A stretch of 64,000 nucleotides of DNA from Gordius sp. MW1 (Eukaryota > Nematomorpha > Gordioida > Gordea > Gordiidae), in assembly GCA_964036665.1 (NCBI GenBank), contig OZ038526.1, forward strand, positions 21,700,001 through 21,764,000, read 5' to 3'. A program made the translations under genes and the position numbers. The notes under the pieces were generated by a model. It was not told where the DNA came from. It ran no database searches and saw only the letters and a list, made by a program, of their open reading frames with translations. Of the stretch, positions 8,353-47,754 are shown piece by piece (positions within the stretch are counted from its first letter, which is position 1; each line of letters opens with the position of its first letter).

Positions 8353-9146
8353 CACAGGTCTACAAATATTGACTTTGTCATTCATCCCGCAACCAGACTG
8401 ATGTTATTAGTTTTTTCCCAATCAAAACTTCCAGTTTTTTAGATAAATGAGGTTGAAGGTGCAAAAAATGCTTATTTTAACCTTTTTTAAGGCTATGTTG
8501 CCATTTTTTAAATTTTACTGAAAATTTTTATTTATTCCTGTAGATTAAAGTTTCATCTATAGGTCTTATTTTAGTTTTTTTCCACTTCTATTTAAGTTTA
8601 TTCGCGTTTACGTGAACCCCTTCCCCTTATCAAAGTTGGAAATTAGAGTAAATACTACACACGCGTACTAACACATTAATCTCTCCCTTTCTCCATCTCT
8701 TCCACTCTCGCCCCCATATCTATCCAAGCACACATGAAGGGGGCGGGAGTGGAGGAGAAAGAGAGGAGAGTAGGTGAAGGGAGAGAGATATGTGTTAGTA
8801 AACACCGCATGTGTAGTATAAACTCTAGTGTATTCCTTTTGCCAGATATATTGATACGAATTTTAATAAGGGGAAGGGGGTCACCTAAATGCGAATAAAT
8901 TTAAATATAGAGGAAAAAACTAAAATAATGGACTTAGTGACACTTTAATCTACAAAAATAAATGAATATTTTTTAGTATAAATTAAAAATGCCGTGGCAA
9001 AATAGCCTTAAAAAAGGTTAAAATGGGACCTTTTTGCACCTTCAACTTCGTTTATCTAAAAAACAGGAAGTCTTGGAAAAAACAAAAACAGATATTTGTT
9101 CAGCGCAAAATTCTCTATCAAGGATGATTTTTTTTGTAGACCTGTG
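8353..9146. mobile_element. Fold-back MITE with CACAGGTCTACAAA ends, copy 1 (794 bp)
   Basis: Both ends carry CACAGGTCTAC and are flanked by TTA, a possible 3-bp TSD. Almost the whole element is an inverted repeat. The centre holds TCTCTCCCTTTCTCC facing GGAGAAAGAGAGGAGAG around ACACATGAAGGGGGCGGGAG. Related copies lie at 23040-23911 and 27368-28285. It has no coding capacity. A TTA TSD would suit the PIF/Harbinger superfamily, but this is inference. Confidence 0.7.
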
Positions 9147-10844
9147 TTAACAGCTGTTCGGAAATCTATTGTATTATTAGTCTAGGATTAAGCACAAGTT
9201 TAAATGTTGTGTATATAACTTCATTATATCCTTTCTAATACTAATGTATTTTATTTTAGTTTTATGATAAGGAGCCTACTATCTTCTATAGGTATGAAGA
9301 TCTATCAGTTTAAAGGGCATACATACTCTTATAAATTAATTATTTACCAAGTTTTTAGTTTGATGTGCTAAGTTTAATTTTTCATTTATATAATTATTTT
9401 TGTTACTCAGATTTTAATTTATCTCATAAATTAAATCATAAATTTTCATATTGTATTTTACGATTAGCAACCTCTAACGAAAGGAAACACCTACAATTAT
9501 CATGAAATGAGAATGTTTTCATAAAACGCGCACTTTTTATTTTGACCATACATTTTATTGTTTGTATATGCTCCCCGAACACAACTTACTTGTTCCCTTG
9601 CAATTATTTTGTTAATCAATAAACAATTAAGCATCCAGGATGTCAATTTAATATTTTAAAAAGGCAGGTTTATGGCTTAAAATTTGGTTATATTAATATT
9701 GCTATTTCGGTAAATAATAAATGCTTTAACTTATTAAGCTTTTAAAATTTAATAAATAACTTAACTAAGTTAAAGCGAATCCTTTCAATAATGTTAACTT
9801 TAAAAATAGAAACAAAATGTTAAATTTGTAATATTTATAAATCATTATTGCGAAGAACTATCAAAGATTTTACACTTTACAAAATTAGACATGTTAAAAA
9901 AAACAAAGTGCTGAGGAAATTTTAGGGCAAATTGGCCCTTTGAAAACCACGTGGAAAGCAAACATTAAAAGCTAAATTATTGGGTATTAAAAATAACAGA
10001 AAATATATACAACACTTTGATTAGAAAAATAGGTTTATAATAATGGTTCTTAGTAATATATGTAAAAAAAATTAAAACCTTTTATATTTCATATTACGGT
10101 TGGTAGGGCGCTGGAAGTTTCTAGCCATCTAAAACACTATAAATTTTAAAATTATTCAGTAAAAGAAGCCAAATTTTGTAAAGATAATTTGCTTTATAGA
10201 GCATTTGACCCCACCTTACCTATGGAGTGTTAAGTAAAGTGCATATAAAGTATAGCAAAACTAAAAACAAGAGAATTAAATAAGTTATTTGACGTTGTCA
10301 TAAGATACTGTTACTTGGGCTCCTTGGCAATTTTACCTTAAATTAATTCACACTTTACACTATAAGAGTTGTATGATGAAGCAATTAATGCAGTGATGCT
10401 CGAGAAGACCAGGTATTTCTATTGTCCATTCATGCCTTTAAAATCCAAAAGCTCACAAAAATTCTCCTTCACTAATTCATCGTCAAAGATTCTTGTATTA
10501 AATTTTTGCAGATAGAGGGGATCAATGGTTTTTTTTGTTTTTCAATGAGGGTTTTTTGCATGATGGAATACATATAAAAAGCTAGACGATCTGAATCAGA
10601 TCCATAGTTCATAATAAAATTTTAACTTAGTAATTTAATCACGTTGAATTTACTAAAACCACATGAATATTTCACACACAACGCATTGGTTATTAAAACC
10701 GAGTGGTGGAATTGAAATTTATAAATGTAATGTTTTGTTGGCAAGGATGTCGAATATAGGGTTCTCTTCTGTCTAGAATTTCCTTCTGCGCCGAAAAAAA
10801 AATTTATGGTATTTTATTTTCGTATGCCAGGCTTCATCACTTGT
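9147..10844. other. AT-rich intergenic DNA
   Basis: No ORF, repeat pair or RNA gene stands out in this 1.7 kb. Confidence 0.5.
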
Positions 10845-11125
10845 TTCTAGAGAAGAGAGGGTCAAAAAGACGAGTGGGGAAGGGGGCAAAAAAGGGAGTA
10901 GCCAATGGGCAAAGACGGAGGCATAAAGGGGGTGAAGGGCAGGGGGCCCAAAAGAGGGTCAGAAATGGTTTGGCAAAGGGGGAAGAAAGGGAAAGGCAAA
11001 AGAGGAGGGGGGGAGCTGGGTAAAGGGGCTAAAGGGGTGTGGCAAGAGAGGCAAAAGAAGGGGGGGGGGGCAAAGGGACAAAAAGGGGGGGGGCAAAAAT
11101 GAAGAAGGGGGCAATGGTCAAACTC
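10845..11125. repeat. Polypurine (G/A) tract of about 260 bp
   Basis: The plus strand is almost wholly G and A, built from AAAGGGG, GGCAAA and G9 runs with very few pyrimidines. The overlapping lysine/glycine-rich ORFs here are a composition effect, not genes. Such tracts can form triplex or G-quadruplex structures. Confidence 0.85.
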
Positions 11126-12360
11126 TAAGCAGGGGAAGAGAGTTGCCCTAAAAGTTAGCCGCCCACAACTACAAAATGCACAAAAAATTAATAATCAAGT
11201 TAGGCCCGGAAAAAGGACAAAATGGTTGATCTATGGGGAGGAACGGTCATCATCCTACTTTCGGCCAGTTTTTTATTTTTTGCAGGCAAAATGTATATTT
11301 GAAGCTGATACCATAAATGCCAAAACCTGCAGCCTAAATATGAATTTTGATTTTGGCCGGGGTCAGGTCAAGTAGAATTAAGCAACGGTGAGCATTAATT
11401 TAAAGAGAATACTTTAGCCAGTTTCGCAATTACCCGATGTAAAGCAACAACCTAGATAGGTTACCAAACAAAATTCATAAACAATAGAATCAGTCTGGCA
11501 CAAAAACAATAATGGAATTTGGGCTGGGGCGAGGTCAAAAAAATTAAAGCCAACCAGCGGTCATTAGTTAGTCTATTTGCGAAAACAAAAAAAAAGTCAT
11601 TTACAGAAGCATATTAAAAACCCTATATGTTTCCACAGCAATTATTGGAAAATTACAGTAGAACAGGATGGACAGAAGCGAGCCCATAAATTGCATAGCA
11701 TTTAATGAAGGTTTTTTACAAATCAGGGTTTTATAAAGGAAACTTTTTAATTAGAAGATGTTTGTCAAAATTAAGATGTGTATAAACCAGCGATATATAA
11801 TTAAATATAAAAATTTTTTAAATTTAAATTTTTAAAAAAGCCTATTATAATTTAAAAGCTGTTTTGGAATAGTTTAATTTGACCTCTTTAAATATATATG
11901 ATAAAAATTTGTGGTGCCCTTAGCATTTGAGCCGGGATAGGGAAATTCATAGACTAATAATAGAATCTGGCGAGCAGCTCATAATTATTAAGTAAGGGAT
12001 GTAGGTCGCAAATTAACTAAAGGCTACTGATTTTGCTAAAATATTAAAATTAAGTGTAAAAAGAGAATTTTTTCATATTCTCATTTTTGTTTCCATAACT
12101 TTTGCAATCTACCCCCAAGTAATGTTTTACAAACGGCTGGGTTTTGCTGGCGACCTCTAATTTTAGTCGACTTAACATAAACAGACCAAAGATTTTTTAG
12201 TTTGTTTTTCTTATTCGCATAAATAGACCAAAGATTTAGTGGTCAAACCATTGGTCGGTCTGTGTTTAGTCGACTAAAACCAAAGGTCGACCAAACAAAA
12301 CTCAGCCGTTTTACAATACTATCCCCAAGTGCAGCTACACCAAAATGGGTGGTCTAAGCT
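11126..12360. other. Intergenic DNA with one Helitron-like end fragment
   Basis: The only recognisable item is a truncated, inverted 5' block of the Helitron-like family near 11668-11705 (GCGAGCCCATAAATTGCATAG). Nothing else is supported. Confidence 0.45.
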
Positions 12361-12507
12361 CATGGGCATAGCTAGGGGGAAGCAGGAGGCTTCCCCCCTC
12401 TAAATTGAAAAATTTGATATAATTATAGCTAAAATTTTAAAAATTGTTATTTTGCTTGCCCCTAGATCATTATCGCCCCACTCGTTCCAATCCTAGCTAC
12501 GCCCATG
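12361..12507. mobile_element. CATGGGCGTAGCC MITE, 147 bp
   Basis: The inverted ends are CATGGGCATAGCTAGG and CCTAGCTACGCCCATG. The flanking octamers TCTAAGCT and TCTAACTA match at 6 of 8 positions, consistent with a decayed 8-bp hAT-type TSD. The same family has perfect or near-perfect 8-bp TSDs at 44634-45060 and 45138-45341. Confidence 0.7.
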
Positions 12508-12704
12508 TCTAACTATTTTAAATATTTATTAATGCAAGAATCAGATGATCGTCGGTTATTGGTATTGTTCGTGTATTAGGAAATTAATGGCGCGTTTATT
12601 TAAATGTTACTGCTACGTTGCCAAGGTTGGTTATAAATGTGGCCTATCTTTGGGAATATAAACATTAGATAGTAATAAGAAATAACATGTATAGTTAGAT
12701 ATAG

Positions 12705-12967
12705 AGACCAGAAAAGCCCGGCCCGTCAGACCTTTGGGTGGGCCCGGGCGGACACCATAATGAGATTCGGCAATTCGGTCTGAATGAGATTTTTCTATAA
12801 TGTATTATTTAGTTTTTGTGTATTATTTTGTCTCTTTTTGTTCTTATTTAAAAAAATCAAGAATTTAATTTAGAATTTTTACAAGTATATAACAAAACTA
12901 GTAATAAAAGTTGTAAAATCATCATTTCGGGCCGCAGGTTGAGAAGTTTTAAATTTGACCTCTGAGA
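12705..12967. mobile_element. GGGCC-rich hAT-type MITE remnant
   Basis: It begins TAGAGACCAGAAAAGCCCGGCCCG and ends AATTTGACCTCTG. The ends and the GGCCCGGGCGG subterminal motifs match the family of the element at 20077-21024. The interior is AT-rich and non-coding. Confidence 0.55.
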
Positions 12968-13059
12968 TCTATAGTAACATAGACTAGTAAACAACTGATC
13001 CTAGCATTGAAAGTTAATGAATGACTCAGGTCTCTATAATTAAGCATGTGCACTTTTAA

Positions 13060-13960
13060 ATTTATTGTAGCAATTGTGGTATCTACAACTGCAAATGTTA
13101 TAGATTTGGATTCAGAGAAAGACATATTCTTCGATTCATTGGAAAAGGAAATACAAAGAATAGGAAAGGAAAGTTAATTATTGGGCGGACTTTAACCCCA
13201 CGTAGAGAAATATAGCATATGTATGAACGAAAACATGGAGGGCATGGGTATGGCCTAAAGAACATGTAAGGAGACAAGATTTTACAATAATCTAAAACAT
13301 GATCTATAATCAAGGGTCGCCTTTCAAAAGCGTAAAAATTATATCGCGACTAATAGATATGGAAGGCATTTCAGTTGAATGCTAGTACTGCAAAAGAATT
13401 TATGCATATTAAGGAAAGGTATAAAGGGGGAAGATATAACCAGACAGCATAATCCACCTTAAAAGTATTTTCGGAAAGAAGAAAGGTATATAAATCTTAG
13501 AAATAAATGCTAAAAGAGACCGAGATAAGCATAAATCAAACCATAAGAAAGTCTCCACGCTATTGGGTGTCATTAAATTTCCGGTAATGGTGCGGATACA
13601 AAAGAGACGGCAATACAGGTTCTAGGACAGACCACATGCAAAGCTTTGAATAGAGCACTATGGCATAAAGGAATATCGGCTAAGGTGGACTAAACATGAA
13701 CTAAGAAGGGATACGGTATTGGGCATGAAGATGTCACGGGGAGCAAGAGGACGTCCTCGTGTTATGTGGAAAGGGCAATTGGGCAAAGTTATAATGAATA
13801 AGAGAATTAATAGGGTCATGGTCCTTACTATCTCAGATGGGAATAACGAATGCGACTGTGGGACCAAATACATGATAAAGAAGAAAATAAGAGAAATATC
13901 AATAATACACGCTACACAATTCATATATATGTAAAAGAAGTGTGAGGCCGAACTATTTCA
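13060..13960 (+). pseudogene. RTE-type LINE relic, internally deleted
   Basis: The first part (near 13110) matches the endonuclease-domain stretch of the RTE copy at 59505-61447; both read TCAGAGAAAGACATATTCTT. The last part (about 13685-13860) reads like the C-terminal tail of RTE open frames, with an RLRW motif and a run of RGARGRPRVMW type. The reverse transcriptase core is missing and stops interrupt all frames, so this is a dead copy with an internal deletion. RTE elements normally encode an AP-endonuclease and a reverse transcriptase in one protein. Confidence 0.65.
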
Positions 13961-14487
13961 ATATTTGACGCGATCTTTGAATCATTTAACCTTTATTCAA
14001 CATTGTAATATTTGTCAATACAGAAGTGCACAATTCAAAATGTGGGACAAATTTGGTACACTAATTAACATATGAGCAATACCAATTCTCGAACCTCTTG
14101 TTACTCATTAGACAGAGTGCTTAATCAAGGCGTCCATAGAAATTATAAATGTTTATATTTTATAATACAAAGAAATTCTATGGCCTTTACAGTACACAGG
14201 GTTTATATAGGTTTTTAAATTAACTAACTTATAGGCATAAAATTCAAAACATTTGTCTATTTATTTAACATTGGGAGTTAAAAAAATGATAAATATTTAA
14301 ACTTAATTTTTCCCTTAACATTTTTCCCGCAACATAACACTATTTATTTCAAAAATTCTTAAAAACTTAATACGATATCGATATTTTATTCGAGCTGAGA
14401 GAAAAAAACTATCTTTAGAAAATTTACTTTTAAAAAATCAAAAATTGTCACCTTTTTAATTTTGTTAGATATATACAAATACATAGA

Positions 14488-14815
14488 CTAGATAGACTGC
14501 TCATCAATTTTAAATAAGCATTTTAAATGTGATAGCAATTTTGGTAATAAACAAAAATATTGCACTAGTTAACATTGCATTTCAAAATAGATATCATTCA
14601 CAAAATTCATAAAGAAATGCTGTGTAGATGTCATGTTAAAGCAATTAATTGCCATAAATAATTATTTACTAACATTCCTTTGGAAGGTAAATTCACTTTT
14701 TCTGTTTTAACAATGGGGTACAATGCAGAAAGGCATGGGGGGAGATTGTCAAATTCAAAATGGTGGTTTTAATAATACACATTTTGCCACATGATACATA
14801 TGACATGAGCAGTCT
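14488..14815. mobile_element. MITE with CTGCTCAT ends, copy 2
   Basis: The ends TAGACTGCTCAT and ATGAGCAGTCTA are inverted repeats. The interior is homologous to 4487-4913, with an internal deletion. Non-coding. Confidence 0.55.
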
Positions 14816-15113
14816 ATGTAGTATATGGATATATGAGAACTTAGCTAACTGAAACTAAATACGGTGCCAATTTATAAAAAAGTCACAAAACCTTTTATAA
14901 CATAACATATCCAATTTCAAACTAACATATATATATTAATATGCCAAAATTGAGTTAGTTTTTCACATGATTGTAAATTAAATGTAGTTTGTACTGTTTA
15001 CTTCAATGTAAAAAAGGTAATATAATACACCCCTTTTCTAAAAAAACCAAATACAACTTGTCAAGGTTAGTTTATATTAATGTAAAACCTTGAAGTTTTT
15101 TAGAAATCTTATA

Positions 15114-15121
15114 GTATAAAA
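15114..15121 (+). promoter_or_regulatory. TATA box of the secreted-peptide gene
   Basis: TATAAAAG lies about 80 bp upstream of the ATG at 15201, compatible with a start site near 15145 and a short 5' UTR. It supports the neighbouring gene call. Confidence 0.45.
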
Positions 15122-15200
15122 GATAGAATTTTTTGCCACAAAGTATATATATATTCTCTTATAATTTCACCAACTTTTAATAATCTAAAAGATCGCCAAA

Positions 15201-16204
15201 ATGTCACTAAAAGGTAATATCATTCTAGTAGCATGTGTTTTTATGATGGGCTTTTTGCACGAAAGCCATGCCCAAAATTTTACACGTAAGTAGTTTTCAT
15301 TTATTTTTTTTATTATATGATATAAAAATTTTGTAAAAATAATAATTAAATGTTTTTATTAGAATTGGGTATTACTTGTCCAGTAGCATATTGCCTAACG
15401 GGCTACCTTATCTTTAGAGATTCTAGTGGTTGCGTCGTATGTAAGTATAAAATTCAAGATAAATTTTCAAATTTTTTGTTTTTTTTTTAATTTTTGACAA
15501 AAATTTTTTTGTAAAAATAACAAAAAATTCTGAGTTTTTTACAAAAATAAAAACTAAAACTTTTAGGGCCTTACGGGCTTTTTTCACATTATTTAGCAAA
15601 GATTTACAATCTATTTTGTGACTCCCCCCGAATTTTGTGTGATTTTATAATTTTTTTTAAACATTTTCATTGCTCAACAAATAATGGACTTATGAAATCA
15701 ATCGGCAAACTGGTTGCAGATTCTGGTAGCTTACGTTGAACACAAATACATTTTGAATTTTTTCCCCCTAACTTTTTTATAAATCAAATTTAGTAGATTA
15801 AAATTTTACCGATTAAATTGCAAGGAATTGATTTAGCAACTTTGACAGCAAATATTTAAAAAACTTGACGTACAATGAAATAAATTAAAAATTTATTCGT
15901 GTTCACAGTGAAAAAGTCGACAAAAATTTGCAATTTTTCTTGATTGTAATTACTTTTAAATTTTTATAAAGGTTATCCACCTAGGGCCCAAGTAAAATTA
16001 TTTTAGTTTTTTGAAAAAGAACATATTAAAAATTTATTTGTACACATTTACAGCTTAAAAGTTTGGATAAAAAATCCCTAAAAGCAGCTCTAGATGTGCT
16101 TTTAGATGCTATATTGGACCAATCTGATTCAAAGGCAATTAATTAACTTCTCCTCATTTTCCTGACTAATTTTTGCAGCGCTAAAAGGAAGAAAAATAAC
16201 CTAA
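15201..16204 (+). CDS. Small secreted peptide with an antistasin-like cysteine motif (spliced)
   Basis: Exon 1 (15201-15285) encodes a clear signal peptide: MSLKGN, a hydrophobic core of ILVACVFMMGFL type, and a small-residue cleavage site at SHA/Q. It ends at a strong donor, C|GTAAGT. Exon 2 (15363-15440) follows a TTATTAG acceptor in matching phase and encodes CPVAYCLTGYLIF then DSSGCVV, the C-x4-C-x2-GY...GC spacing of antistasin-type protease-inhibitor repeats. It ends at T|GTAAGTAT. The last exon is uncertain: TTTTTGCAG at 16170-16178 gives a short in-frame tail ending at TAA (16202-16204), while an alternative acceptor at 15565-15566 gives a longer tail of random-looking composition. 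A TATA box lies upstream. Secretion is well supported; the inhibitor role is inferred from spacing only, and only part of one antistasin repeat is present. Confidence 0.55.
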
Positions 16205-17170
16205 AATTCATAATTAAAATTATATTATTTGTTTGCAAATATTTTTCATCACAATATATTGATTAACCGCTAAAATCGGACTTATATCGGATATTTCATG
16301 TTTACATGATAAAGATAAATAAACCAAACATAATTTTATTTTTTCGTATTAATCTATAGTTAAAAATAATACATATTTTGTAGTGAATGAAATAACTTAA
16401 AATGTTAAGTATCATTTTGAAATTATTTATTAATAGTAGTTATACCAATATAGATATTTTTAAGAACTGCAGGTAAAAAATTTAATTTTTCAAACTATAA
16501 ACATTCCTAAATTTGTATAAAAACACTTTTTTAAGTCTAGAGTAAAATAAATAATTTAATTAGAAATATCGACTAACTTATACTTTAAAACAATGTAAAA
16601 ACTCATTAGTTGGCAAAGTGAGGGTGGTAAGAGGGCACTGACTCCCCCCCCCCCCTTTATTTTAAATCTATACTGAGCTCAAAAATAATGATAAATAATA
16701 ATTTTATTATAATTATTTGTTTTATCTTTGTAAATAAAAAAATTGAAAAACTTAATAAGGAATATTTTAGGCGAAGTCATATGACAGTTTTCTGCGTGCA
16801 AACATTTCAAAAGTTTGGGGTCTTATGGACCCCATAATTGTGATGAATTTTCATTTTAAAAACAATGTATCAGATCGCAAGTCTCCTTACCAATTTAAGA
16901 ATGTTATAAATGTAAAAATAAAAACACTATACCAAATAACGAGGAAATAATGGGGGTTTTTACAAATTAAAATTAACCTACTCGCTTATAAGTTTGAAAA
17001 TTATTTATCAAACTAATCAAAATTTTAGTAAATAATAATAAAAACTCAAAAAATTATAACAAATAAAACAAATCGACAACTTTGTAGATATAAGGAAAAA
17101 TAAATAAAATTCCAAAAATAACTCTAAAAAAAGGATAAAAATGTGAGACGAAAGTGACGCGCGCGACGTT
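16205..17170. other. AT-rich interval between two converging genes
   Basis: It separates the 3' ends of the peptide gene (plus) and DBT (minus). A C12 run lies near 16643. No canonical AATAAA for DBT is seen close to its stop. Nothing else recognised. Confidence 0.45.
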
Positions 17171-20100
17171 TTATCTCAAATCCACAATCATATTTTCGGG
17201 ATGTTCTAGCAGACGCTTCCAGCAGGTAACGAAACGCGCTACCGTCGCACCGTCTACGACCCGGTGATCAGCTGTGACGCAGATGTTCATCACGTGACAC
17301 GGGGTAACGTGCTGGTCCCGTTCTCCTTCCTTCTCAAACCTGGGCAGTTTCTAAGGGATAATATAAAAAAAAGTCCATTTTTTATTATAAATATATTTTA
17401 CCCTTATCCTGGCTAAAGCGGCTATAGCAACTTCGGGTGGCAAAATAATTGATTGGGCGTGGGTTCCACCGATCTAACAAAATAATAAAATAAAAATAAA
17501 GTGTAAATTCCTAAAAAATATTTAGTTTTAAAAATATATAATTTTTTTATAAACTTGGAGCTTATCAAGAAAGAGTATAATAGTAGTTTGATATAATATA
17601 TAATTTTTCATCAATCCATTATGATATATAAAATGAAAAAAACACAAGTTTAGCTTTCTAATATGAACAGAATATTTCTTAATCGTATCTAATTGCTTTT
17701 TATAAGCAAAATCTCCTAGTTTTCATGGCTTACCAATCAAAAATGTAAAAGATAAACAAATAATATATTATTTTTTTTCAAATTTCCACCCTAATATCTA
17801 GTCAAAACGTTAAAAAAAAGTAGGTCGGGTTGACATTTTCCATGCTAATCCGTTCAACCATGGTAAAAATTAACCTAAATTGTTTCGATAAAGCTTAGCT
17901 GCGGTCCATATTTGACCGCGTTTAGGAGCAAGGAGAGGGGGTCTGGGTTGAAAATTATAACGGGTCCAGTCGGGGGGGGGGGATCAAGTTTAACTTTTAT
18001 AAAAAAAAACTTAGGTCAAATTATTTACGTAAGAAAGGGAAAAGAATGTGGGGGGGGGGGGGGGGCTTGAAAATTATAACGGTTCAAGTTCGATTCGTAA
18101 AAATTTTCAAATATTTTCAGGGCAGCCCTCGTTAGTCTAAGCTAAGTAATGACTTTGGTCTTGTTATTTACGAGGAAGGGGGAGAGAGTGTGGGGGTTTG
18201 GGCCCGTTATAATTTTTAAATAATTTTCAGGCGGGGTTAGGGGTCGAAGTCATGACTTACGGTTCCAATGTTCGAAATGGTAAAAGTCCCACGTGATAAA
18301 TCATCCGGCCCGAGCCGATCGGCTCGACAGAGTGCCGTTAGATTATTCAACTCCTGCGTTATTTCTCTCAAAGTTTTCCGCTGTACCCCTTTAACGTTCG
18401 GTACCAAAAGGCCACGAGCGCTATCCATCGCTATACCCACGTTATGATACGCCTGAACCAACCAACGAATAAATATTTATTTATGCGAATGTGACAAGTT
18501 TAGGCACAACTGGGGAAATGCATAACTGGAGAAAAGTCAAAATAGTTAGAAGAAAGTGTGCTTATATATATATACAGAATATATGTTATTCGAAATAGTT
18601 ATATATATAGTATAAAACTATACTTCTTTTTAAAATTGCAATATAGAGTAAAATAACAAACCTATACAAAATTTGTGTGCTTAAGTATACAATGAAGAAA
18701 CTAAGAGTGACAATGATATACAGCTTGCGATATATAATTGCAAAACAGAATTATTTATAATCCTCATAGTAAAGTTTCAGATATATGTTGCTTCTAAACT
18801 TTAGATTATTATTTGATGCCTATAAATATTATATGCATTTCGCCAGTTGTGCAGGAGCGGAATAAATGAATGAATGTCTCACTAGATATTCTACCGTTTC
18901 TTCGGACTCGTTAAATCGACTATTTAGAATGGGGAATTTCTCGAGAGCCATAGAGACGGACTGCAACATGCAAAATTAAATTCTAAATTACAGTCGATAA
19001 AGTCGTGGGTTCGAGCCCCACGTTGGGCGAATATTTTTTAAAAAAATTTCTTAAATGTAAAAGTTTAGAAATCGTTAAATCCAACATTTTCATAGGCGGA
19101 TCAATGCCATCCGTTTAGTTATAGCGCGTTTTTATATATTTTTTAGTCGTGAATGTAATTTTTTGTATACCATTTATTAAAGACTTCTTATTATTTTACT
19201 ATTTTAAATTGTATATTTATTAAAAATCCCAAAGTTAATAAAAGTGTTTTTGGGAAATATTAATACATTTTTTGAATGTTAAATTCCAAATTATGAAATA
19301 AGAATTATTATGTAATCAGGGTTAAAGATGTCCATTAATTTAAAGTATTTATTTTAATTAAAAAAATTAATATATATTAATAAACTTCAGTTTTAACTCT
19401 TTACATCATATTTCAACAATGATATTCTTAAAATCACAAAAAAATTTATGTAAACATCCAAAAACCAGCCAAAACCCTCCTTTTTGAATATTATGGAAAA
19501 AAAATAATTTACTTTTATGAAGAAGGGGGTAAGCGTTAATTTTGATGGAGTAGACCCTTTTTCACTTCCGCTCAGTATTGCCTCACCTAAACGTTCCCTC
19601 ATTTTGAGTAATTTTCTCACGTCTACTTCTTCGGTAAAAGAAAATTGCGGAATTTTAAGCGTTTCCCTCATTGTCTTTATCATAGCCTTCCTAATACCTG
19701 TTCAAATTAAGTTTTTTATCTTCAACATTTTAAAATATTTTTTAGGGTGGGGGGGGGGGAAGCATTCGCCCGTTCTTGCCCCTGATAGTTAAATAGTATA
19801 AAATCTACGTAATAGGTCAGGCAAATGTGAAAGTATTAGTGTAAGTTGACTTAAATAGTAGAACAATCATATTATTGAAATCAATTTAAGTCCAACCCCG
19901 GCCCGATCTTTCCAAGTTACATTTTACGAACCTAACTCGAGTCGGGCCGGGCCAATAAGTTAAGGTCGGGCTTGGGTTTATGATGCGAAGAAAACTATTA
20001 GTTATTTTTATATTGATACCACTAGGCTTAATTATCCATTCAAAAAACCCTGTTCAAAAATATACATACTTCCTATCAGAGGTCAGAAATGCCCGGCCCG

Positions 20101-22657
20101 GCCCCCTGCCCGGCCCGCCCAGCCCACGGGCCGGGCAACTGTCTTAAGTTTTACTTTTCGGACGGGCCCGGGCGGGCACGCTGATAAGATTCGGGCAATT
20201 CGGGCATGCCAAAAATTTTATCAAATTGATTTTCCTCGAAAAAAGAAAAATTCGCTATGGGCTGATGATGAAGATGATACAGCATTAGATGAGATCAATT
20301 CATACTTGAATGATGTTTTAGACAAGGACGTGGATGAAAAAATTTCCCTTTTAACATGGTGGAAAAATAAAGAAAACAAGTCACATTAAAGTTATCTAAT
20401 ATTTAACTATTTTAGGTATCCTAAATTAGCAAGATTAACAAAAATACTCTTTGCCATCCCGGCGACGAGTGCTGCAAGTGAAAGAAGTTTCTCTATCGCA
20501 GGAAGATTAATAGAGGAAAGACGCACAAGATTATCCCCGGAAATTGTCGACGATTTGTTATTTTTACATAATAATTATGAATAATAAAATATTGTCATCT
20601 TTGTTCTGATCAATATGCCATTATTTAATGCTTATTTTGTAATAGTGGTTAAAAGATTTTGGGATTGGATAAATTCTAGTCTAACGGGCAAATTTTATTA
20701 ATAAGGCCGGGCAGCTCTAATGGTTTGGGCATGGCTGAGCGGACACTTAGAAGGGTTCAGGCGGGGAATTTAGTTGAAAATTTAGACCGGGCCGGGTTTG
20801 GGCAGAAAAATTTTAACAAATCCGACCTCTGTTTGCGACCTCACAAATTCGGGACTAACGGGCAAATTTAATATTTCGGGCCGGGCAATTCGGGCAGCTT
20901 TAACGATTCGGGCGGGCTCGGGCGGACACTTAGATGGGTTCGGGCGGGCTCGGGCGGGCAGATTAATTATAAAATCGGACCGGGCCGGGTTCGGGCTGAA
21001 AAATTCTAACAAATCTGACCTCTGCTTCCTATACCTAGACAAAAGGTTTAAGGAAAAAAAGAAGCTTTATTTTTTTAGATTTTATATAATGATGCTAATT
21101 TTATTAATTCAAATTCAGGAAATGTGATTCTAAGAAACTCCAAAAAACTAATTTATAGATAATAATCTCTAAAAATATTTAAAGTTGCAAAAATATAATT
21201 ACCTTTCACTTTTTCTACTCTGTGGCTCGGGCTATCTATTTTAAAAAATTAAATAAAAATTAAAAGTTAAATTTTGTGTGTATTGTGTTTTGACTAATTG
21301 TTTTTCGAGAATATGCGATTTTTCCATTTCGACGAAAAATTTTACTCGAGGCGACATAACGTCTAACGTCTTCTTCGGTCACCCTACCATCAGGTCTTGT
21401 TGAGTTAATCACACCAATATCTAATACCTAAATTCAATATATTTTAATTTAATTAAATCAATATAAAGTTCCGTTTTTTGGCGTAAAAATTCTTGCAATT
21501 ATCATAAAAAAAACTTGTATTTCAACAATAAACTGTTTTTTTAATCCTAAATTAACTAATTTAAAATTTTATATAAAGTATACATTTATTTACATTTATG
21601 AGTGTTACTTTAAATTAATATTAAAAAAATGGTTTGTTTAATTATGAAAATGTAAAAAAATATTATACAAATTGATTAAGGTTTTTATATAAAACTAGAT
21701 TTTAAAAAGTTTAGTTGCCACTAATGGGCAACAAAGTTCATATATAACATATAAATGGGTAACAAAATTATTAAAAAATTTTAATCCACATTATTTCTAT
21801 TATTCGTTTTTCATTTTTTAATGTAAAATATGTTAAGTGAAAGTATAAACGAGTCTTAACTAACACTAAATTAATGCAAATTTGAGGAAGGAGGGGCCAA
21901 GATATTAACTTTTTAGAAAATTTATTCAAAAAATAATCAATAAAAAAATGTTAAGCTAAGTTCCAATTTCGAAATATAAAATGTATATATTATATAAAAT
22001 CTATTAAGGTGCATTTGAAAGTTAGATAAAAATAAATTTATACCAAAGTACAAAGGTGTTTTAAAAAGATTAATAAAAATAGCCTTAAATACAAAAGATA
22101 ATCCTACTCCTAAGTCTTTAGCTAGTTTTCTGACCATGGGAATGGCTAAACCATTTGGTTTAGAAGTTTTAAGTGGTTCTTTATTTTCTTTTATTTCACG
22201 AGGTGTATTGTAATCTGATGATGGTCCTAAATATTTAACATTTTTTTAAATATATGTTATACCTAAATTCTTGGAATTTTCTCTAGCATTTATAAGTTGA
22301 ATGTCAACCAAGGGATTACCAACTTGGATTATTTCATCAATATCCTTATGTAATTTCATAATTTTTCCATCAAATCTGCTAGTTATAGTTACACTTGCTT
22401 TGTCACTTTGGACTTCACAAATATTATCAAATTGTTTTACATCATCACCTACTTTAACAAACCTTTAATAACTATCATTAGAATATAAAGCTTAAAATTA
22501 CCATTCCTTAATGGCAACTTCCTTAATTCCCTCTCCTATATCAGATAGTTTATAGGGAATGATATGTGAGCAATTGTATTCTACTTTCTAATAAAAATTA
22601 TCTAATATTTCTTACTTGTAGAGCTAGTAAAGCTTTTAAAACCGACTTTTTTATCAT
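17171..22657 (-). CDS. DBT: DBT: lipoamide acyltransferase (E2) of branched-chain 2-oxoacid dehydrogenase
   Basis: E2 core of the mitochondrial branched-chain 2-oxoacid dehydrogenase complex; it transfers acyl groups from lipoamide to CoA in leucine, isoleucine and valine breakdown. Eleven exons (transcript order): 22657-22616, 22587-22502, 22462-22263, 22226-22108, 21427-21346, 21235-21203, 19697-19513, 18960-18883, 18452-18261, 17473-17402, 17350-17171. All junctions are GT-AG, phases agree, and they give 422 codons with a TAA stop (human about 482). The N-terminus has a short basic, hydrophobic leader ([13 protein letters not shown]). The lipoyl domain (about 24-95) has YKLSDIGEG and the lipoylated lysine in [10 protein letters not shown] (Lys64). 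The E3/E1-binding domain is about 135-175 ([19 protein letters not shown]). The acyltransferase domain (about 190-422) ends with the catalytic ADHRVVDG (His392, Asp396). The ATG follows an in-frame stop; a further upstream exon remains possible. The linkers are shorter than in vertebrates. A hAT element (20077-21024) sits in one intron. No frameshift or missing key residue seen. Confidence 0.93.
19003..19029 (+). pseudogene. tRNA-Lys 3' fragment in a DBT intron
   Basis: TCGTGGGTTCGAGCCCCACG then TTGGGCG equals the T-arm and 3' acceptor strand of animal tRNA-Lys. The T-stem CGTGG/CCACG is perfect. The D-arm, anticodon arm and 5' acceptor strand are missing, because DBT coding sequence lies just upstream. 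It is probably a SINE head or tRNA fragment, not a functional gene. Confidence 0.6.
20077..21024. mobile_element. hAT element (948 bp) in a DBT intron, perfect 8-bp TSD
   Basis: The inverted ends CAGAGGTCAGA and TCTGACCTCTG are flanked by CTTCCTAT on both sides (20069-20076 and 21025-21032). The subterminal regions are packed with GGGCCGGG/CGGGC motifs on both sides, typical transposase-binding clusters of hAT elements. The interior keeps the C-terminal end of a hAT transposase on the plus strand, opposite to DBT. The N-terminal domains are missing, so it is non-autonomous. Confidence 0.9.
20258..20584 (+). pseudogene. hAT transposase C-terminal fragment (dimerisation domain)
   Basis: An acidic stretch runs into [10 protein letters not shown], then [26 protein letters not shown] and [19 protein letters not shown]: the hAT C-terminal dimerisation region with its conserved ASER.FS core. 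The two parts join in frame across a 36-nt GT-AG intron (20380-20415). The open frame stops at TAA 20582-20584. The catalytic DDE part is absent, so the product cannot be an active transposase. Confidence 0.8.
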
Positions 22658-23036
22658 GCTGAACGTTAATACTACTGATATGAAAAATAAAACCTTGGTT
22701 TAAATAAAACTAACACTATGTACGCATTAAAGGTGTTAAATTACTTTCGAAACTGACCAGCGTTTTAATAATTTTATAGGTAACATATGACATCATGTGA
22801 TTCCATCCTCCACTAACACTTGGTTCCATTTTACATCATAGCTTAATCACTAATAAAACCATAGACTGCCGAACAGCTGACAATTTTTCAGCAAGTAAAG
22901 AAAGCGTCATTTTGAGGGAAATTTTAACCAAACAATAGAGCTCAACATAATTTATTGTTCTATTTTACTTATTTTGTTCTAGATTTTTTTAATGAGGCTA
23001 ATAGTCTTTTAAAATATATACATAACTTGGGTCTAA
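22658..23036. other. Region upstream of DBT
   Basis: This would hold the DBT promoter and any further 5' exon. No clear TATA box or initiator was found, and no second coding segment is convincing. Confidence 0.4.
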
Positions 23037-23039
23037 TTA

Positions 23040-23911
23040 CACCTCTACAAATTTTGCCTTGTGATCAAATCCCGCAATCCGACCAATAATTCGGATAGAG
23101 AATTTTGCGCTGAAAATTAATATGTTTTTAGTATTTTTCTACAATTACTAGTTTTTAAGATATACGCGGTTGAAGGTGCCAAAAATGCTCTTTTTAAGCC
23201 TTTTTGAGGCTAGATTACGATGGTATTTTTGATATTTAGTGAAAAATAGTAATATATTCATGTAGATTAAAGTTTCATCTATAGGTCCATTAATTTATTT
23301 TTTGGATACACCTCTATATATAAATTTATTCACGTTTTTGTGAACCCCTTCACCTTATCAAAATTCGTCCCACTATGTCTGGAAAAAGGAGTACATTAGA
23401 TTAGAGTACATACTACACACGCGCTGTTTACCACCACATCTCTCTCTTCCTTTCTCCATCTACTACACTCCCGTCCCCATATCTATCCAAGCACATATGA
23501 AGGGGGCGGGAGTGGAGGAGAAAGAGAGGAGAGTAGGTAAAGGGAGAGAGATATGTGTTAGTAATCATCGCGTACTTTGTATGAACTCTAATGTACTCCG
23601 TTTAGCAGACATTGTGGGACGAATTTTGATAAGGAGAGGGGGTTTACGCAAACGCGTATAAATTGTAATATAAGGGTGATATAAAAAAAATAATGGACCT
23701 ATAGATAAAACCTTAATCTACATGAATATATTACTATTTTTCACTAAATATTAAAAATGCCGTGGCAATTTAGCCTCAAAGGGCATTTTTGGCACTTTCA
23801 ACCTCGTATGTCTAAGAAAATGGTAATCGTAGAAAAAAACTAAAAACATATTATTTTTCAGCGCAAAACTCTCTATCAGAATTATTGGTTGGATTGCTGG
23901 ATAGACCTGTG
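23040..23911. mobile_element. Fold-back MITE, copy 2 (872 bp)
   Basis: The ends are CACCTCTACAAAT and ATAGACCTGTG, flanked by TTA on each side. The centre contains CTCTCTTCCTTTCTCC opposite GGAGAAAGAGAGGAGAG around GAAGGGGGCGGGAGTGG. Arms of about 380 bp are inverted copies. Homologous to 8353-9146 and 27368-28285. Non-coding. Confidence 0.7.
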
Positions 23912-25884
23912 TTATCTTAATTCTGAATAATAATTTTTCTCATCATCCACATAGTGGTCAGAATTAACATAAATTTTTTTGAAGAAATCGAATTAGGCCC
24001 CATTATTATATTGCTGATTTACCTTTAATATTTCATTTCCTCATTAGATTGCAACATTTTATGGATTTCTTCTTCATTATATTTATAACTTCTTGGATAT
24101 TCCTTCTCATCCTATTTATAATTGATATTTTTATAAATAGTGCCCAACTCAGTGGGATATTGAAAAAACAGAGGAATTCTAAATAGATATATTAAGAATG
24201 TAAGGCAAAGCTTAGTTGGCAAAAACCATATGCTTTTGTAGATGTAACTTTGTGTCTTACTTTTTTCTTTGTATGCCTATTACCTTTCCCATAGTCTTAA
24301 TTTTATAATTACCTATATAATCCTATTCTAATCGTTATCAACAATATATTCAGTTTGATTCCTTACATTATAATAAATCTCTGAACATCCCCAATTATTT
24401 CCTATTTTTTAGAGATATATTATAACTTTAAATCAATCAAAAACAACTCTGACATGGCAAGCTTGAAAAAAAGTCCTATTATAGGTGCAAAATTAGGCGG
24501 GGGGGGGGGTGTATGATTATCAAATTTGATATTTAAAGAAACACCATCCTTACTACTTGGTGAAAGCAATTACACTATTGTTAATCTTTGAGGGATAGGG
24601 ATATTCAATATTAAACTTTGTAAGGGATAGGGATATTTATCCTAGAATCATATTTTGAGAACGGATTATTTGATTATTCGAACCGTAGTTGTACAAAAAG
24701 AAAATGAATTTAACATATAATTTTTATATAGATATGAATATATGTTTATTATTTACAATACACGAAACATACATATATACACTCAAAACTAATTAATAAG
24801 TAAGGCATGGAGTTATTGGTCACGAACCCTTACAACTAAATATATACATATATCTCATACACGCTAAAATGCAATTCATTGATTATGTGCCACCTTCCTT
24901 TTTATGAACAATTATAATTATTTCGACGCTCTCCAAAAATTTGATCAAATTGATAGTCCAACATGTGCCTTAAGAGGGTAAGAAAGTAAACACAAGTCAG
25001 GGAGGGGACGGAAGACGAGGTAAAGAAATAACTTGTTGTGTATAACACTATTGTTGTATTTATTCGTATAAACAATTTAAAAAATCAACGATTATAATAT
25101 AATTTTGTATATATATAGTAAGGTTGCGTGATAATGGGGTGATACGCGTGATAGTGGAATGATACAAAATTAGGGTAGATGGAGTAATATGCAAAAGTAA
25201 TAATTATGTCCTTGAATAGTGATAATAACATAAGTGGTCTGGTGCTATAACAACTATGTTATCAAAGCCAAATTTGAAAAATTTTGATGTCGAATTTTTT
25301 TTGATATTGTAGGTGAAGAAGCTTGAAAATATATATAAAAGTCAGTAAATTTGGGAATCATTTTATCCACGATAGACTCCGATAAGAATTTTTAAGCAGC
25401 GAGAACACTCGATTTAAGAGCGTTTTAAGCGTGTGTTCTAATTTTTTAAAACATGCTGTATGCGATCGTGATTTAAAAGTGAAAATAGATATATGGGGAT
25501 TGCAACAGACAGATGTTAGTTGTTTAAGCATGTTAATATTATTAATGTAATTAGGTTTGTCTATTTTTTAGATTTAAATACATGATAAGCAATGTCGACA
25601 AATTCCCTTTCTGTCATCAAATTAAAAACTGTATATAATTAAAAAACATAAAAGATAAATATATAAGCTTAAGTCAATGAGAAAGTATTTAAATTCGAGA
25701 TTTGCATAGACTAAAATTCTAAATTCCGGCTTGAGCCATACACGCACAAATATATTTTTTGTCGGCCTTAACGAGCCCGCAGATTTTACAGTAAAATTTG
25801 CTGCAATGCCAGCACTAATTTTAAAAAGCCTACATTGCTTTAAATTATTTTTTGTTGAAACGGTGAATTAAAGGTATTCTACGG
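23912..25884. other. AT-rich intergenic DNA
   Basis: About 2 kb with no supportable gene. Notable only: a G10 run near 24500 and GATACGCGTGATA-type repeats near 25125-25170 that recall the ATCACGCG motif of the LTR at 51905. Confidence 0.4.
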
Positions 25885-26612
25885 GAGTGGTTCTTAACCT
25901 TTTTATACACGCGACCCCCCAAATATTTTATAATTTGTTTGCGGCCCCTCATTTTGTTCATAATAATTTATTGTTATATTATCTATAATATATTGATTTT
26001 CTATTATTTTTTCATTTTTATATATAATAAACATAAAACACAACTTTATTATTTCATTATCTATTTAAAATTTAAATAGATAATGAAAAAATAATAACAT
26101 AAAATCTTCATAATTAAACATAAAAACAATGTTTAAAAAAAAATATATGCATTCGGAAATATATTTAATGAGATTTCTGTTGCTGAACATCTTCAGCCAA
26201 TTTGTTAATTCTTGGTTCAATTAATTGTAATGCTATCCTCATGCAGGAAACTAGTCGCAATCGATTGCGTTTTTTAGTTTTTATATCCACCATAGTTGAG
26301 AAGCCTTTTTCACACAAATATTTACTAGCGAAAGGCAGCAAATTTTGAATTGCTGCTGAAAATAATGGAGGATATTCTGCACGAATTTGTATCCAAAATT
26401 GCCGCAAACTTTTAGTTTTAAACAAAGATTTTAAATTACAATCATTTATTAATTCTAATAATGAATCTTAAGACAACGAGTTCGAATCCCCTGGTGAGTT
26501 TTTTCTACAGCATTTCTGAATATTTTTATTTTATTCTAAAGAAATTTGGCGACCCCCCGGCAAACTTCTCGCGACCCCTAGGGGGTCGCGACCCCCAGGT
26601 TAAGAATCACTG
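25885..26612. mobile_element. hAT (Charlie-like) deletion derivative with perfect TSD
   Basis: The left end GAGTGGTTCTTAACC and right end GGTTAAGAATCACTG are inverted. The flanks are TTCTACGG at 25877-25884 and 26613-26620, an exact 8-bp TSD. The CAGTGRTTCTTAACC-plus-GGTCGCGACCCC end resembles Charlie-type hAT elements. Inside is a minus-strand transposase C-terminus and a short tRNA-like B-box (GAGTTCGAATCCC, near 26478). At 728 bp it is an internally deleted copy. Confidence 0.9.
26165..26425 (-). pseudogene. hAT transposase C-terminal fragment (ZBED/SCAND3-like)
   Basis: About 86 residues. The core LLPFASKYLCEKGFSTM followed by IKTKKRNRL is the hallmark C-terminus of the domesticated-type hAT proteins (LPF.STYLCE.GFS...KTK.RNRL). 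It lies inside the TSD-bounded element 25885-26612. The upstream catalytic region is missing, so this is a relic. Confidence 0.8.
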
Positions 26613-26620
26613 TTCTACGG

Positions 26621-27367
26621 CACCTACAAAATTATTAAAACAAAAAGACTTTCTTAATTATTGAGCTTTACTCAAGTTCTTTCATCTTCCATAGGACAGC
26701 TCGCTTTACTGAAGGTGCCCTCAGTTGGTTGGAATTGGCAAAATTTTGCTAACTTAAAATTTGATAGCAATGGTTGATTTTTTTTCAGCCATAGAAGCAC
26801 ATGACTAAAAATTAAATTTGGTTTAAAAAGAGAATATTAATAATTCTTTTTTTTTATAATTTAATATCCCAGATCTTAAATTAATTGAAATTTTATTTCC
26901 ATTGATGTACTAAGTGCATTCCTTTGTTTTAAATATCTTGCCCCAAGACTGGCCCGCACTTTTTACTCAGGCTCCTCCAATATAAATGAACTGGAATAAT
27001 TTGTCTATTTTTATTGTATAAGACATGCTTTAAATGGTTTTGTTTTCATAACTTTGATTTTTAACATGTTACTTAATAAAATATCAAACTTTACTAAATT
27101 TAACTTAAATCATATAGAGGGTACTGGAAATTTTTTGAATCTGAGTTTAAGCCAATATACCTATTTTTTGGACTTGTTTATTTGTATTTTTGAATAATGC
27201 GATATTAGTCATTCAATCTTAAAGAATGCTTTTTCAGTTTCATCATTATTGACCATGTTCATTTAAACATTTAGTTTTTGCTAAGAAAATCTATAAAAGG
27301 TATCAAACCAAGGTGGATCACAGACTAATAAAATAGATCAGTTATCTTTGAAGGAGATACCCCTGAT
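26621..27367. other. AT-rich intergenic DNA
   Basis: Nothing recognised between the hAT at 25885-26612 and the next fold-back element. Confidence 0.45.
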
Positions 27368-28285
27368 AGCACAGCTCTACAAATATTGACTTTGTGATTT
27401 CATCCCGCTATCAGACCATTTAGTTTAATAGAGAATTTTGCACTGAATAATAATATGTTTTTAGTTTTTTTTCAAAGCTTCCCGTTTTTTGGACAAACGA
27501 GGTTAAAGGTGCAAAAAATGCCAATTACCCCTTTCTGAGATTCAACAGCCACGAAATTTGTAATTTTTATCAAAAAATATTAATTTATTCTCATAGATTA
27601 AAGTTTCATCTATACTTCTATTATTTTATATTTTTTTATACCATCCTTATATTTAAATTTATACGCGTTTGCGTAAACTCCTTCTCCTTATCAAAATTTG
27701 TCCCACGATGACTAGTAAATGGAGTAAATTAGCGTTCATACTGCGTGCGCGATGTTTACTAACACATATCTCTCTCCCTTCACCTACTCCCTCTCTTTCT
27801 CCTCCACTCCCGCCCCTTTCATGTGTGCCTATGCCTAGATAGATATGGGGGCGGGAGTGGAAGAGATGGAGAAAGAGAGAGATGGATGTGTTAGTAAACA
27901 TCGCGTGTGTATTATGTAATCGAATGTACTCCTTTTTCCAGACATAGCGGGACGAATTTTGATAAGGGGAAGGGGTTCACAAAAACGCGAATAAATTTAT
28001 ATATAGAGGTGTAACAAAAAAAATAAATTAATGGGCCTATAGATGAAACTTTAATCTACATGAATATATTACTATTTTTCACTAAATATCAAAAATACCA
28101 TCGTAATCTAGCCTCAAAAAGGCTTAAAAAGGGCATTTTTGGCACCTTCAACCGCGTATATCTTAAAAACTAGTAATTGTAGAAAAATACTAAAAACATA
28201 TTAATTTTCAGCGCAAAATTCTCTATCCGAATTATTGGTCGGATTGCGGGATGTGATCACAAATTCAAAATTTGTAGAGGGTAAT
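27368..28285. mobile_element. Fold-back MITE, copy 3 (about 0.9 kb)
   Basis: It begins CACAGCTCTACAAATATTG and ends near TTTGTAGAGG. The long arms are inverted around CTCCACTCCCGCCCC and GGGGGCGGGAGTGG. Homology with copy 2 (left side) continues outside this element's right end (ACTTGGGTCTAATTA, inverted), so the true ends may lie further out. Non-coding. Confidence 0.65.
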
Positions 28286-28319
28286 TAGACCCAAGTTTTG
28301 TAGATATTTTTATTTGAGT

Positions 28320-29166
28320 TAGAGGTGTGCACGGATCAATCCGATCCGACATCCGATCCGATCCATCCGAACTCGGATTCGGACGGATCGGATCAACATT
28401 TTAATTTTGGAAGTCGGATCGGATCGGATCAACATTTTATTTTAGTCGGATCGGATCGGATTTTCAAATTTAAAATAAACAATAATAATTAAATTAATAA
28501 TTTTTAGTAACCTTTTCATAATTATATTTGCATTCTCTTTTTAATTTACCATTTTTGATGCCCAATACCACCTCTCACCTTGTATTTTCCTAGCATTTTT
28601 TCCCTAGCTAGACTTTCTTGTTTGGCGAGAAAGGAGCTAGTGTCGATCATAAACCAGCACCCGTTTCCTTTTTAGCACACGCATTTTTTTTTATATTAAT
28701 TTAATTTATAAATAGCTAATGTAATTGATTGAATAATTATAATTTACATAAAACATATAAATTAAAAATGTAACTGCTCAACTCCGAAAATTATCAATCA
28801 CAATCTCCCCTTTCCTTAAAGCAGATGCGTAGCTCCTTTCCCCGAACCAGAAAATTTAGATTTTTTATTATTTTTATATGATAATATGGAATTAGTCGAA
28901 TAAAATTTATATTTACTTCAGGTCTATTAAAATTGCTTTAACTTATTTTTATGTATTTTGAATTTAATCATCAATAAAAAGTTCTGTTCGTAAAATTTTA
29001 ATTTATAAATTTCGGATCGGATCGGATCGTATTTAGATTTTAAAAAACTCGGATCGGATCGGATTTCGATTTTAAAAAACTCGGATCGGATCGGATGGAT
29101 ATAAAATTTTTCAAAAACACCTCGGATCGGATCGGATCAAAAAAATTTGATCCGTGCACACCTCTA
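28320..29166. mobile_element. hAT-type MITE with GGATC arrays, perfect TSD (847 bp)
   Basis: The inverted ends TAGAGGTGTGCACGGATCAA and TTGATCCGTGCACACCTCTA are 20 bp with at most one mismatch. The flanks are ATTTGAGT at 28312-28319 and 29167-29174, an exact 8-bp TSD. Both subterminal regions carry arrays of CGGATCGGATC. The interior is AT-rich and non-coding. Confidence 0.92.
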
Positions 29167-29214
29167 ATTTGAGTACGGTGTTCATCATTCAAAAATAAAT
29201 GTAGAAACTAAAAT

Positions 29215-29360
29215 CCAAATGTAAGAGTGACAGCTGTAAGAGATTATAAGAATTTACATTTATTATGTGAACAATAGGTTTAAATTGTTCTTAAATCTTG
29301 TATACTTGGTGAGAGCAAATAGATTATCCGCTAGATGGCGGTGCAACTAATTTTAGTGTA
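29215..29360. repeat. Dispersed repeat, homologous to 38585-38735
   Basis: It shares ATTTACATTTATTAT, TACTTGGTGAGAGC (TACACTTGGTGAAAGC in the partner) and CCGCTAGATGGCGGT with the other site. No ends or coding capacity are visible. Confidence 0.55.
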
Positions 29361-29816
29361 ATTTTTTCCACATATATATTGTTTATTTAAACGTAAGAAC
29401 ATTATAAAAACGAAGTGTTAAAATTGGAAAAATATAAGAGTGGGTATAAAACTAAATAAATTATTATAATTCAAAAGCGTCGCATGTGTCATCTATTAAT
29501 AGCGGCCAGCTGTCGGCCAGGGATTTAAAATTGTACTTTGCTATAAAAATATTTTTTTAAGTAAAAAATTTGTGGAATATTTAGAGGGCGGCCACGGCTG
29601 ATTTCTTTGAAAAGCTTGGCGGCAGGACCAAAAGACCCAGAGTGGGAGGCAACGAGAGTGCATAAAATTCAATCTCATTAGCAGCCTACATTACTTTATA
29701 TAAATTCGCTCATGTTTCGGCCGATTAATTACATCAAGTGCGGATCAATCGTTTGTACAAGCTCTAGATGGCTGATCTGCCAACGTCAACCCAGGGACCC
29801 CCTTCCCCATAACCTT

Positions 29817-30357
29817 AAGACAAAAGGATTGGGACGCTGGTCTCGTTCCGCGCTCCGTTGATTACCTTTTATCGAGTTGTGACGCCCGCCAGCACTTCAA
29901 CCTTAAAACTTTGGTTTTTGATGGATTGGGTCACGAGTGGCTAGAAGCTTATCTTAGTTCACTTTCTGGTTTAACGTTGGAGGACCCTGAGTTAGCATAT
30001 CCCATCGGCCCCCTATTCAAAGGAATGTTTCTGCCGCAACTGCCCCCAGAAGGTAGACATTTGTACAAGGCACCCCCTACACTGCCTTTATAATAATTTG
30101 ACATAAGGCACGAAAAGGTGAATAGCTTTATGCAAGTCGCGCTTAAAAAAGCCAATATTGCGTCCGTTTTAGAGCCGTCAGACCCTTCGTTGAAAGAAAG
30201 GATGCGACCAGACGGCTCTACCCTGATCGCTTGGCAAAATGGTCTACCCCTTAAATGACATTTTACTTGCATAGACATTTTCGCCTCCTCTAACCAGAAC
30301 TACAACGCTCTGACCCCCGCTGAGGACCGCAAAACGAAGTTAGCATTGCTATTGAAA
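29817..30357 (+). pseudogene. Non-LTR retrotransposon ORF, C-terminal region, broken
   Basis: The first part reads QKDWDAGLVPRSVDYLL then LGHEWLEA. After an in-frame stop it resumes with ALKKANIASVLEP, MRPDGSTLIAWQNG and TCIDIFASS. The order HEWLEA, then RH, ALxxANxxSVLEP, RPDGxTLxxW and xDxFA matches the minus-strand fragment at 54433-54900. These tails follow the reverse transcriptase in some LINE-like proteins; the (K/R)PD...D pattern recalls the restriction-like endonuclease of R2-type elements, which is inference. The cysteine/histidine segment is not intact here, and several stops and frame changes show it is dead. Confidence 0.6.
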
Positions 30358-30359
30358 TA

Positions 30360-46070: not shown

Positions 46071-46076
46071 GTAGAC

Positions 46077-47752: not shown

Positions 47753-47754
47753 CG

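Follow-up and report, generated by a model that had tools for sequence, protein, structure and literature searches.

In the planarian Schmidtea, intron lengths have been reported to be sharply bimodal, one group clustering around 57 bp and a second measuring 1–10 kb (PMC4978528). For dicyemids, an average of 26.2 nt was given for 16 introns of 7 genes (PMC2222250), and the genome of Dicyema japonicum was described as containing 48.9% repeats, with a mean intron length of 38.2 bp (PMC6736024); the genome survey that reports a dicyemid median of 27 bp gives 57 bp for an orthonectid (PMC6543705). A survey of human introns gave 30 bp as the shortest length apart from XBP1 and suggested that possibly none shorter exists in any species (PMC6549324), a statement which the dicyemid data, as published, already contradict. 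A validated human intron of 43 nt has been named (PMC8363638). Going by these reports, animal genes that mix tiny with large introns have been described before, and the combination of minimal introns with a repeat-filled genome, called unusual in the initial annotation of the DNA analysed here, is not unusual in view of Schmidtea (PMC4978528) and Dicyema japonicum (PMC6736024).

For the human DBT gene, a partial list of six intron positions was drawn from clinical variant names, namely c.51/52 and c.175/176 (PMC8898721), c.433/434 and c.939/940 (PMC11905697, PMC8162326), c.1017/1018 (PMC9654865; exon deletion p.Ala314-Lys339) and c.1281/1282 (PMC11905697).

Identity and structure of the DBT gene

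The window, by which we mean the whole 64,000-nt stretch of DNA that was analysed, contains a complete gene for the branched-chain keto-acid dehydrogenase (BCKD) E2 subunit, DBT, running on the minus strand from 22657 to 17171. In the chosen model, 11 exons and 10 GT-AG introns yield a spliced frame of 1269 nt (422 residues plus the stop), the introns measuring, from 1 to 10, 28, 39, 36, 680, 110, 1505, 552, 430, 787 and 51 nt. The four short intervals noticed in the initial annotation (28, 36, 39 and 51 nt, at 22588-22615, 22227-22262, 22463-22501 and 17351-17401) were all recovered with GT-AG ends, and their removal leaves a single frame that is open over 422 codons and includes the lipoyl, E3-binding and catalytic domains. 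The range of 430–1505 nt that it gave for the remaining introns has to be widened, as these measure 110, 430, 552, 680, 787 and 1505 nt and the 110-nt intron falls outside. Retention of any one of the 28-, 39-, 36- or 51-nt introns creates a premature stop, the first stop then lying at codon 20, 44, 115 or 380.

The N-terminal lipoyl domain (Pfam Biotin_lipoyl, 7.9e-19, above the cut-off) starts in exon 2 (22502-22587) with KLSDIGEG and continues in exon 3 (22263-22462), where the lipoylation motif (DKA) is present as SDKAS. Exon 4 (22108-22226) encodes the linker and the start of the E3-binding domain, the end of which lies beyond intron 4 (21428-22107) in exon 5 (21346-21427); this domain was matched by Pfam E3_binding at 1.6e-8, with 35 bits against a cut-off of 23.7. 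Intron 5 (21236-21345) is followed by the 33-nt exon 6 (21203-21235), in which RVEKVKG corresponds to RTEPVKG in the alignment with the solved BCKD E2 core. Downstream of intron 6 (19698-21202), the catalytic domain (Pfam 2-oxoacid_dh, 1.6e-74, above the cut-off) is found in exon 7 (19513-19697), exon 9 (18261-18452) and exon 11 (17171-17350), the last of which holds the catalytic DHRVVDG, aligned over DHRIIDG, and the stop codon; exon 8 (18883-18960, 26 codons) and exon 10 (17402-17473) lie between them, separated by introns 7 (18961-19512), 8 (18453-18882), 9 (17474-18260) and 10 (17351-17401). The best solved relative is the BCKD E2 core 2ihw (3.6e-68; 120 of 232 aligned residues identical), which we take to be the bovine protein. 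The next is the PDH E2 3duf (7.4e-56), so that BCKD E2, and not PDH or OGDH E2, is nearest to the product by comparison with solved structures only, not by a tree. When viral contigs were scanned with the C-terminal 147 residues, three pattern matches were returned, none of them confirmed as a relative. Provided that it is expressed and imported, the product would serve as a mitochondrial E2 core subunit with a lipoyl arm carrying acyl groups.

Judged from its sequence, the locus is apparently an intact, otherwise ordinary DBT gene. In all likelihood, it is an intact nuclear gene with introns of two sizes, the short ones being spliced conventionally and some of the long ones having grown by insertions. 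The description "two intron sizes" rests on the ten introns of one gene because no other host gene was found when Pfam was run on six unspliced frames of 1-15001, 22601-37601, 37601-49000 and 49001-63999. These scans, with E limits of up to 1 in some stretches and up to 0.1 in the rest, covered 15002-22600 only via the DBT product, and short exons can escape unspliced frames. Outside DBT, they returned mobile-element families and marginal matches.

The short introns 2, 3 and 10

How far the sequence forces the short introns was assessed by listing, for each of them, every nearby GT-AG, GC-AG or AT-AC pair that leaves an open frame. For intron 2 (22463-22501; phase 2, within the W codon of KEW/FVK), 39 nt was the sole GT-AG solution in the region tested, the other solution being a single 108-nt AT-AC pair that deletes most of the conserved start of the lipoyl domain; the 39-nt intron is therefore a firm prediction. 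Around intron 10, 29 solutions were found in all, the GT-AG ones giving introns of 51, 69, 72 and 90 nt, with GC-AG and AT-AC pairs also present. The 51-nt junction gives an ungapped fit of ARIR/KLPRF to GTIK/ALPRF of the solved E2 core, and the prediction of a 51-nt intron 10 is well supported. Intron 3 (22227-22262, phase 1) is located in a variable, poorly conserved linker and allows 40 solutions, eight of them GT-AG; 36 nt is the shortest of these and probably the correct length, the others being 48, 75, 84, 93, 105, 132 and 141 nt, so that the intron measures at least 48 nt if other sites are used.

The short introns (39 and 51 nt with good support, 36 nt probable, 28 nt possible) would lie near the minimum of the major spliceosome. 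They would be removed by ordinary U2-type splicing, the donor and acceptor presumably being recognised jointly across the intron. Non-spliceosomal excision of the short introns was weighed as well, and nothing supporting it was found.

The first intron

Traced towards the 5' end, the open lipoyl frame stops at 22587: a TAG immediately precedes this point, and the frame has no ATG of its own. An exon from further upstream must consequently be spliced on, either at 22588 or at one of two AGs slightly further downstream. Within 3 kb, 85 in-frame 5' solutions were found; seven of these either have a donor that agrees with the consensus at 7 or more of 9 letters or imply an intron shorter than 120 nt, and two of the 85 deserve weight. 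In the first, translation starts at 22657, and a 14-codon exon (22616-22657) ends at the donor CAA/GTAAGA, position 22615; splicing from there to the acceptor 22588 would remove the 28-nt intron 22588-22615, a structure that is not forced. In the second, the first exon is 22745-22786 (MLPIKLLKRWSVSK, also 14 codons), and an ordinary 157-nt intron (22744-22588) ends at the same acceptor. An upstream exon 1 replacing the 28-nt intron, a possibility raised in the initial annotation, hence exists as a candidate, and the choice is approximately even. Between 22860 and 22590, the donors of these two solutions are the only GT donors in the top 8%. The near-even odds, as well as the weights attached to the readings below, are figures of judgement and not a computed posterior.

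The 28-nt intron, to which we would give very nearly an even chance, draws most on its donor. With donor and acceptor matrices built from nine introns of DBT itself, this site scores 8.24 and belongs to the top 0.9% of the 5672 GT sites in the window, compared to 6.81 and the top 2.9% for the donor of the 157-nt intron. To estimate how often such structures arise by chance, 928 other acceptor-like sites of the window were examined for an in-frame ATG exon spanning 10 codons or more, with thresholds that were set after viewing the site. A decoy equal to the 28-nt structure (donor 8.2, 20–60 nt) turned up at one control acceptor out of 928 and in 4 of 5000 shuffles; at the donor score of the 157-nt intron (6.8), the same length range gave decoys at 4 of 928 control acceptors and in 31 of 5000 shuffles, and a range of 61–190 nt gave them in 114 of 5000 shuffles. 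A looser control yielded 8/928 for 20–60 nt and 26/928 for 20–200 nt. Moreover, the start codon of the 28-nt structure has A at -3, and among three candidate acceptors its donor keeps the frame open with 22588 only. The codons of its exon fit the usage of the gene less badly, with a score of -1.31 (top 39% of control stretches) versus -6.86 (top 88%) for the upstream exon, though both scores are negative, and neither first exon therefore looks typical of the DBT gene. The acceptor matrix separates poorly, true acceptors scoring between -5.0 and 6.2 when left out in turn, and this matrix ranks 22588 no higher than the top 24% of AG sites. Within the 157-nt intron, the acceptor-like TATTTTTCATATCAG at 22675 scores 4.0 versus 2.83 for 22588.

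Against the 28-nt intron stands, apart from the existence of the upstream exon, the fact that nine ATGs at 22862-22727 (counted from 22900) precede 22657, should the transcript begin that far upstream. The dicyemid median of 27 bp speaks for the 28-nt intron, but in the open-access literature searched introns below 30 nt are documented for dicyemids, with such introns possible in other animals; most introns of an orthonectid are reported to exceed 30 bp (PMC6543705), an acoel annotation with introns down to 6 bp may reflect an artefact (PMC10565955), and the human survey reports no canonical intron below 30 bp (PMC6549324). The three lineages described as having the shortest introns, which include dicyemids, are reported to show no branch-point signature (PMC2483917), and an unclear branch point is thus no argument against 28 nt.

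The ordinary 157-nt intron is a real possibility that we would put clearly below even. It requires no unusual splicing, and the first six intron letters at its donor (AAA/GTAATT) are identical to those of introns 2 and 6 of DBT. It follows 14 codons in phase 0, which recalls the human intron 1, in phase 0 after 17 codons (c.51/52, PMC8898721), but the same is equally true of the 28-nt intron. On the other hand, a solution of this kind (donor 6.8, 61–200 nt) arose by chance at 18 of the 928 control acceptors, its ATG at 22786 has C at -3 and is preceded by seven ATGs within 76 nt, and splicing would have to bypass the acceptor-like site at 22675. With respect to an import signal, the leaders encoded by both first exons are basic and lack D and E. 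The leader of the upstream exon is the more basic one (net charge +4) and has the higher hydrophobic moment over 11 residues, features also seen in import signals; with an 11-residue window, 1.8% of 883 control peptides match or beat it in being basic and amphipathic, compared to 7.5% for the leader of the 28-nt structure. With an 18-residue window, however, the latter is the more amphipathic (0.379 versus 0.209).

That the first exon lies elsewhere upstream, both candidates being decoys, appears unlikely. The 85 in-frame solutions within 3 kb leave room for such an exon, and a good solution within 61–1500 nt was present at 206 of the 928 control acceptors, but this reading demands two candidate exons arising by chance within 200 nt. 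Finally, DBT sits among repeats, but that it is a decaying copy whose short gaps are left unspliced is highly improbable, given that 422 codons stay open over 11 exons, that all three domains are kept, together with SDKAS in the lipoyl and DHRVVDG in the catalytic domain, and that every gap starts with GT and ends with AG.

To return to the 28-nt intron, the fuller claim that it is a major-spliceosome intron in a repeat-rich, non-dicyemid genome, with kilobase introns in the same transcript, falls somewhat short of an even chance. If true, one spliceosome would handle introns of 28–1505 nt, reaching beneath the 30-nt floor that the human survey suggested for any species.

Long introns and mobile DNA

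The initial annotation described kilobase introns bearing transposons. Mobile DNA is indeed present in introns 6 and 8. Intron 6 (1505 nt), the only one above 1 kb, contains a 948-bp hAT element (20077-21024, plus strand) with 11-nt CAGAGGTCAGA ends and a perfect 8-bp target duplication, CTTCCTAT, an 8-bp duplication and short terminal inverted repeats being hallmarks of hAT elements. A 55-aa piece at 20417-20581 matches the C-terminal part of the Hermes transposase (E 6e-13) on the plus strand, antisense to DBT, and the element also includes internally repeated GGGCCGGGC-rich stretches. Without the element, intron 6 would measure 549 nt. Intron 8 holds a 349-nt element (18504-18852, strand unassigned) with 21-nt terminal inverted repeats, a pattern that appeared in 0 of 500 shuffles; the flanks are identical over just 2 nt, which makes for no convincing target duplication. 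Its subtraction reduces intron 8 from 430 to 81 nt, and intron 8 gave no other match in the window at E 1e-3. Introns 6 and 8 have been lengthened through insertion of mobile elements.

In introns 4, 7 and 9, repeats or inverted arms are present but no clearly delimited insertion was recognised, and a mobile insertion behind every long intron is unsupported for these three. Intron 4 was considered as an inverted-repeat element, but its 22-nt arms were equalled in 3 of 500 shuffles, and intron 9 has internal repeats and G runs. Intron 7 includes a tRNA-like T-arm (CGTGGGTTCGAGCCCCAC) at 19004-19021 that may be a SINE end and gave a weak Rfam match (E 0.57). No structural RNA reached gathering scores in the window, and a search of 16900-23000 with an E limit of 1 returned two weak matches.

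Elsewhere in the window, further matches to the hAT dimerisation domain were observed at 33770-33931 (minus strand, 1.1e-5), 42194-42319 (minus, 0.0026) and 57448-57660 (plus, 5.8e-16), together with a sub-threshold BED zinc finger at 33165-33248 (plus). Similar 105-residue open frames at 23344-23658 (plus) and 27662-27976 (minus) both start with TPSPYQNSS and share YVWKKEYIRL; they look like inverted copies of a single repeat, and one lies upstream of DBT. Gag/integrase retroelement pieces extend over several frames at 51740-54397, flanked on either side by similar frames (CNCILHHARLFKLGYSNYIHYH), and two reverse transcriptase (RVT_1) stretches at 58916-59332 (minus) and 60959-61472 (plus) are LINE-like in sequence, one of three matches being above the Pfam cut-off. 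Repeated frames with ANGHFF-like phrases at 286-1266 and 6750-7537 (minus) and 36916-37191 (plus) represent a dispersed, minisatellite-like repeat.

Implications

Annotation pipelines may discard or merge very short introns. A planarian annotation is reported to have merged introns below 30 nt, which there were usually 1–5 nt (PMC4978528), and according to a review very short introns are filtered as noise in many studies (PMC13149111). If the 28-nt intron is true, such filters would corrupt the start of the DBT gene, and the minimal space in which a spliceosome can work could be studied at this locus as a compact natural test case. If it is false, the locus shows how easily an AT-rich leader produces a false micro-intron. 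The outcome is a good gene call plus one mildly interesting intron, the rest of DBT being ordinary.

Comparison with described genes

With dicyemids, the gene shares a repeat-rich setting and, if the 28-nt intron is correct, an intron in the range near 26–28 nt that dicyemids show at conserved positions. In contrast to dicyemids, at most one of its ten introns is below 30 nt, and the gene does not fall into an ultra-short, dicyemid-like class with introns mostly below that length. Dicyema proteins are, furthermore, described as highly divergent (PMC2222250), whereas the DBT analysed here shares about half of its aligned residues with the mammalian core. On intron lengths and conservation, as judged from published descriptions only, a dicyemid origin is unlikely. 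The likeness to Schmidtea mediterranea lies in bimodal lengths, although here the short set is at most 51 nt, save for the 110-nt intron, and a single long intron exceeds 1 kb.

Compared to human and bovine DBT, the domain order and the catalytic and lipoyl motifs are the same. The human gene has two introns before the lipoyl domain (c.51/52 and c.175/176), while the gene described here has one; in contrast to the human gene it has several introns shorter than 52 nt, and its predicted presequence is far shorter. Intron 1 shares phase 0 with c.51/52 and intron 3 shares phase 1 with c.433/434, neither region being alignable. At the level of the residue, three of the six human positions agree, with introns 7, 8 and 10 at c.939/940, c.1017/1018 and c.1281/1282. 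By alignment to the solved E2 core, introns 7 and 8 flank a 26-codon exon (exon 8) that has the extent of the human Ala314-Lys339 exon, and intron 10 was placed at Lys427 by a hand count from Ala314 on the alignment row, human and bovine numbering being assumed equal there. Introns 6 and 9 presumably agree with human c.772/773 and c.1209/1210. The long introns lie partly at positions common to human DBT. The 51-nt intron, found at an old position, is not a recent gain, and the short introns may have reached their present size by shrinkage.
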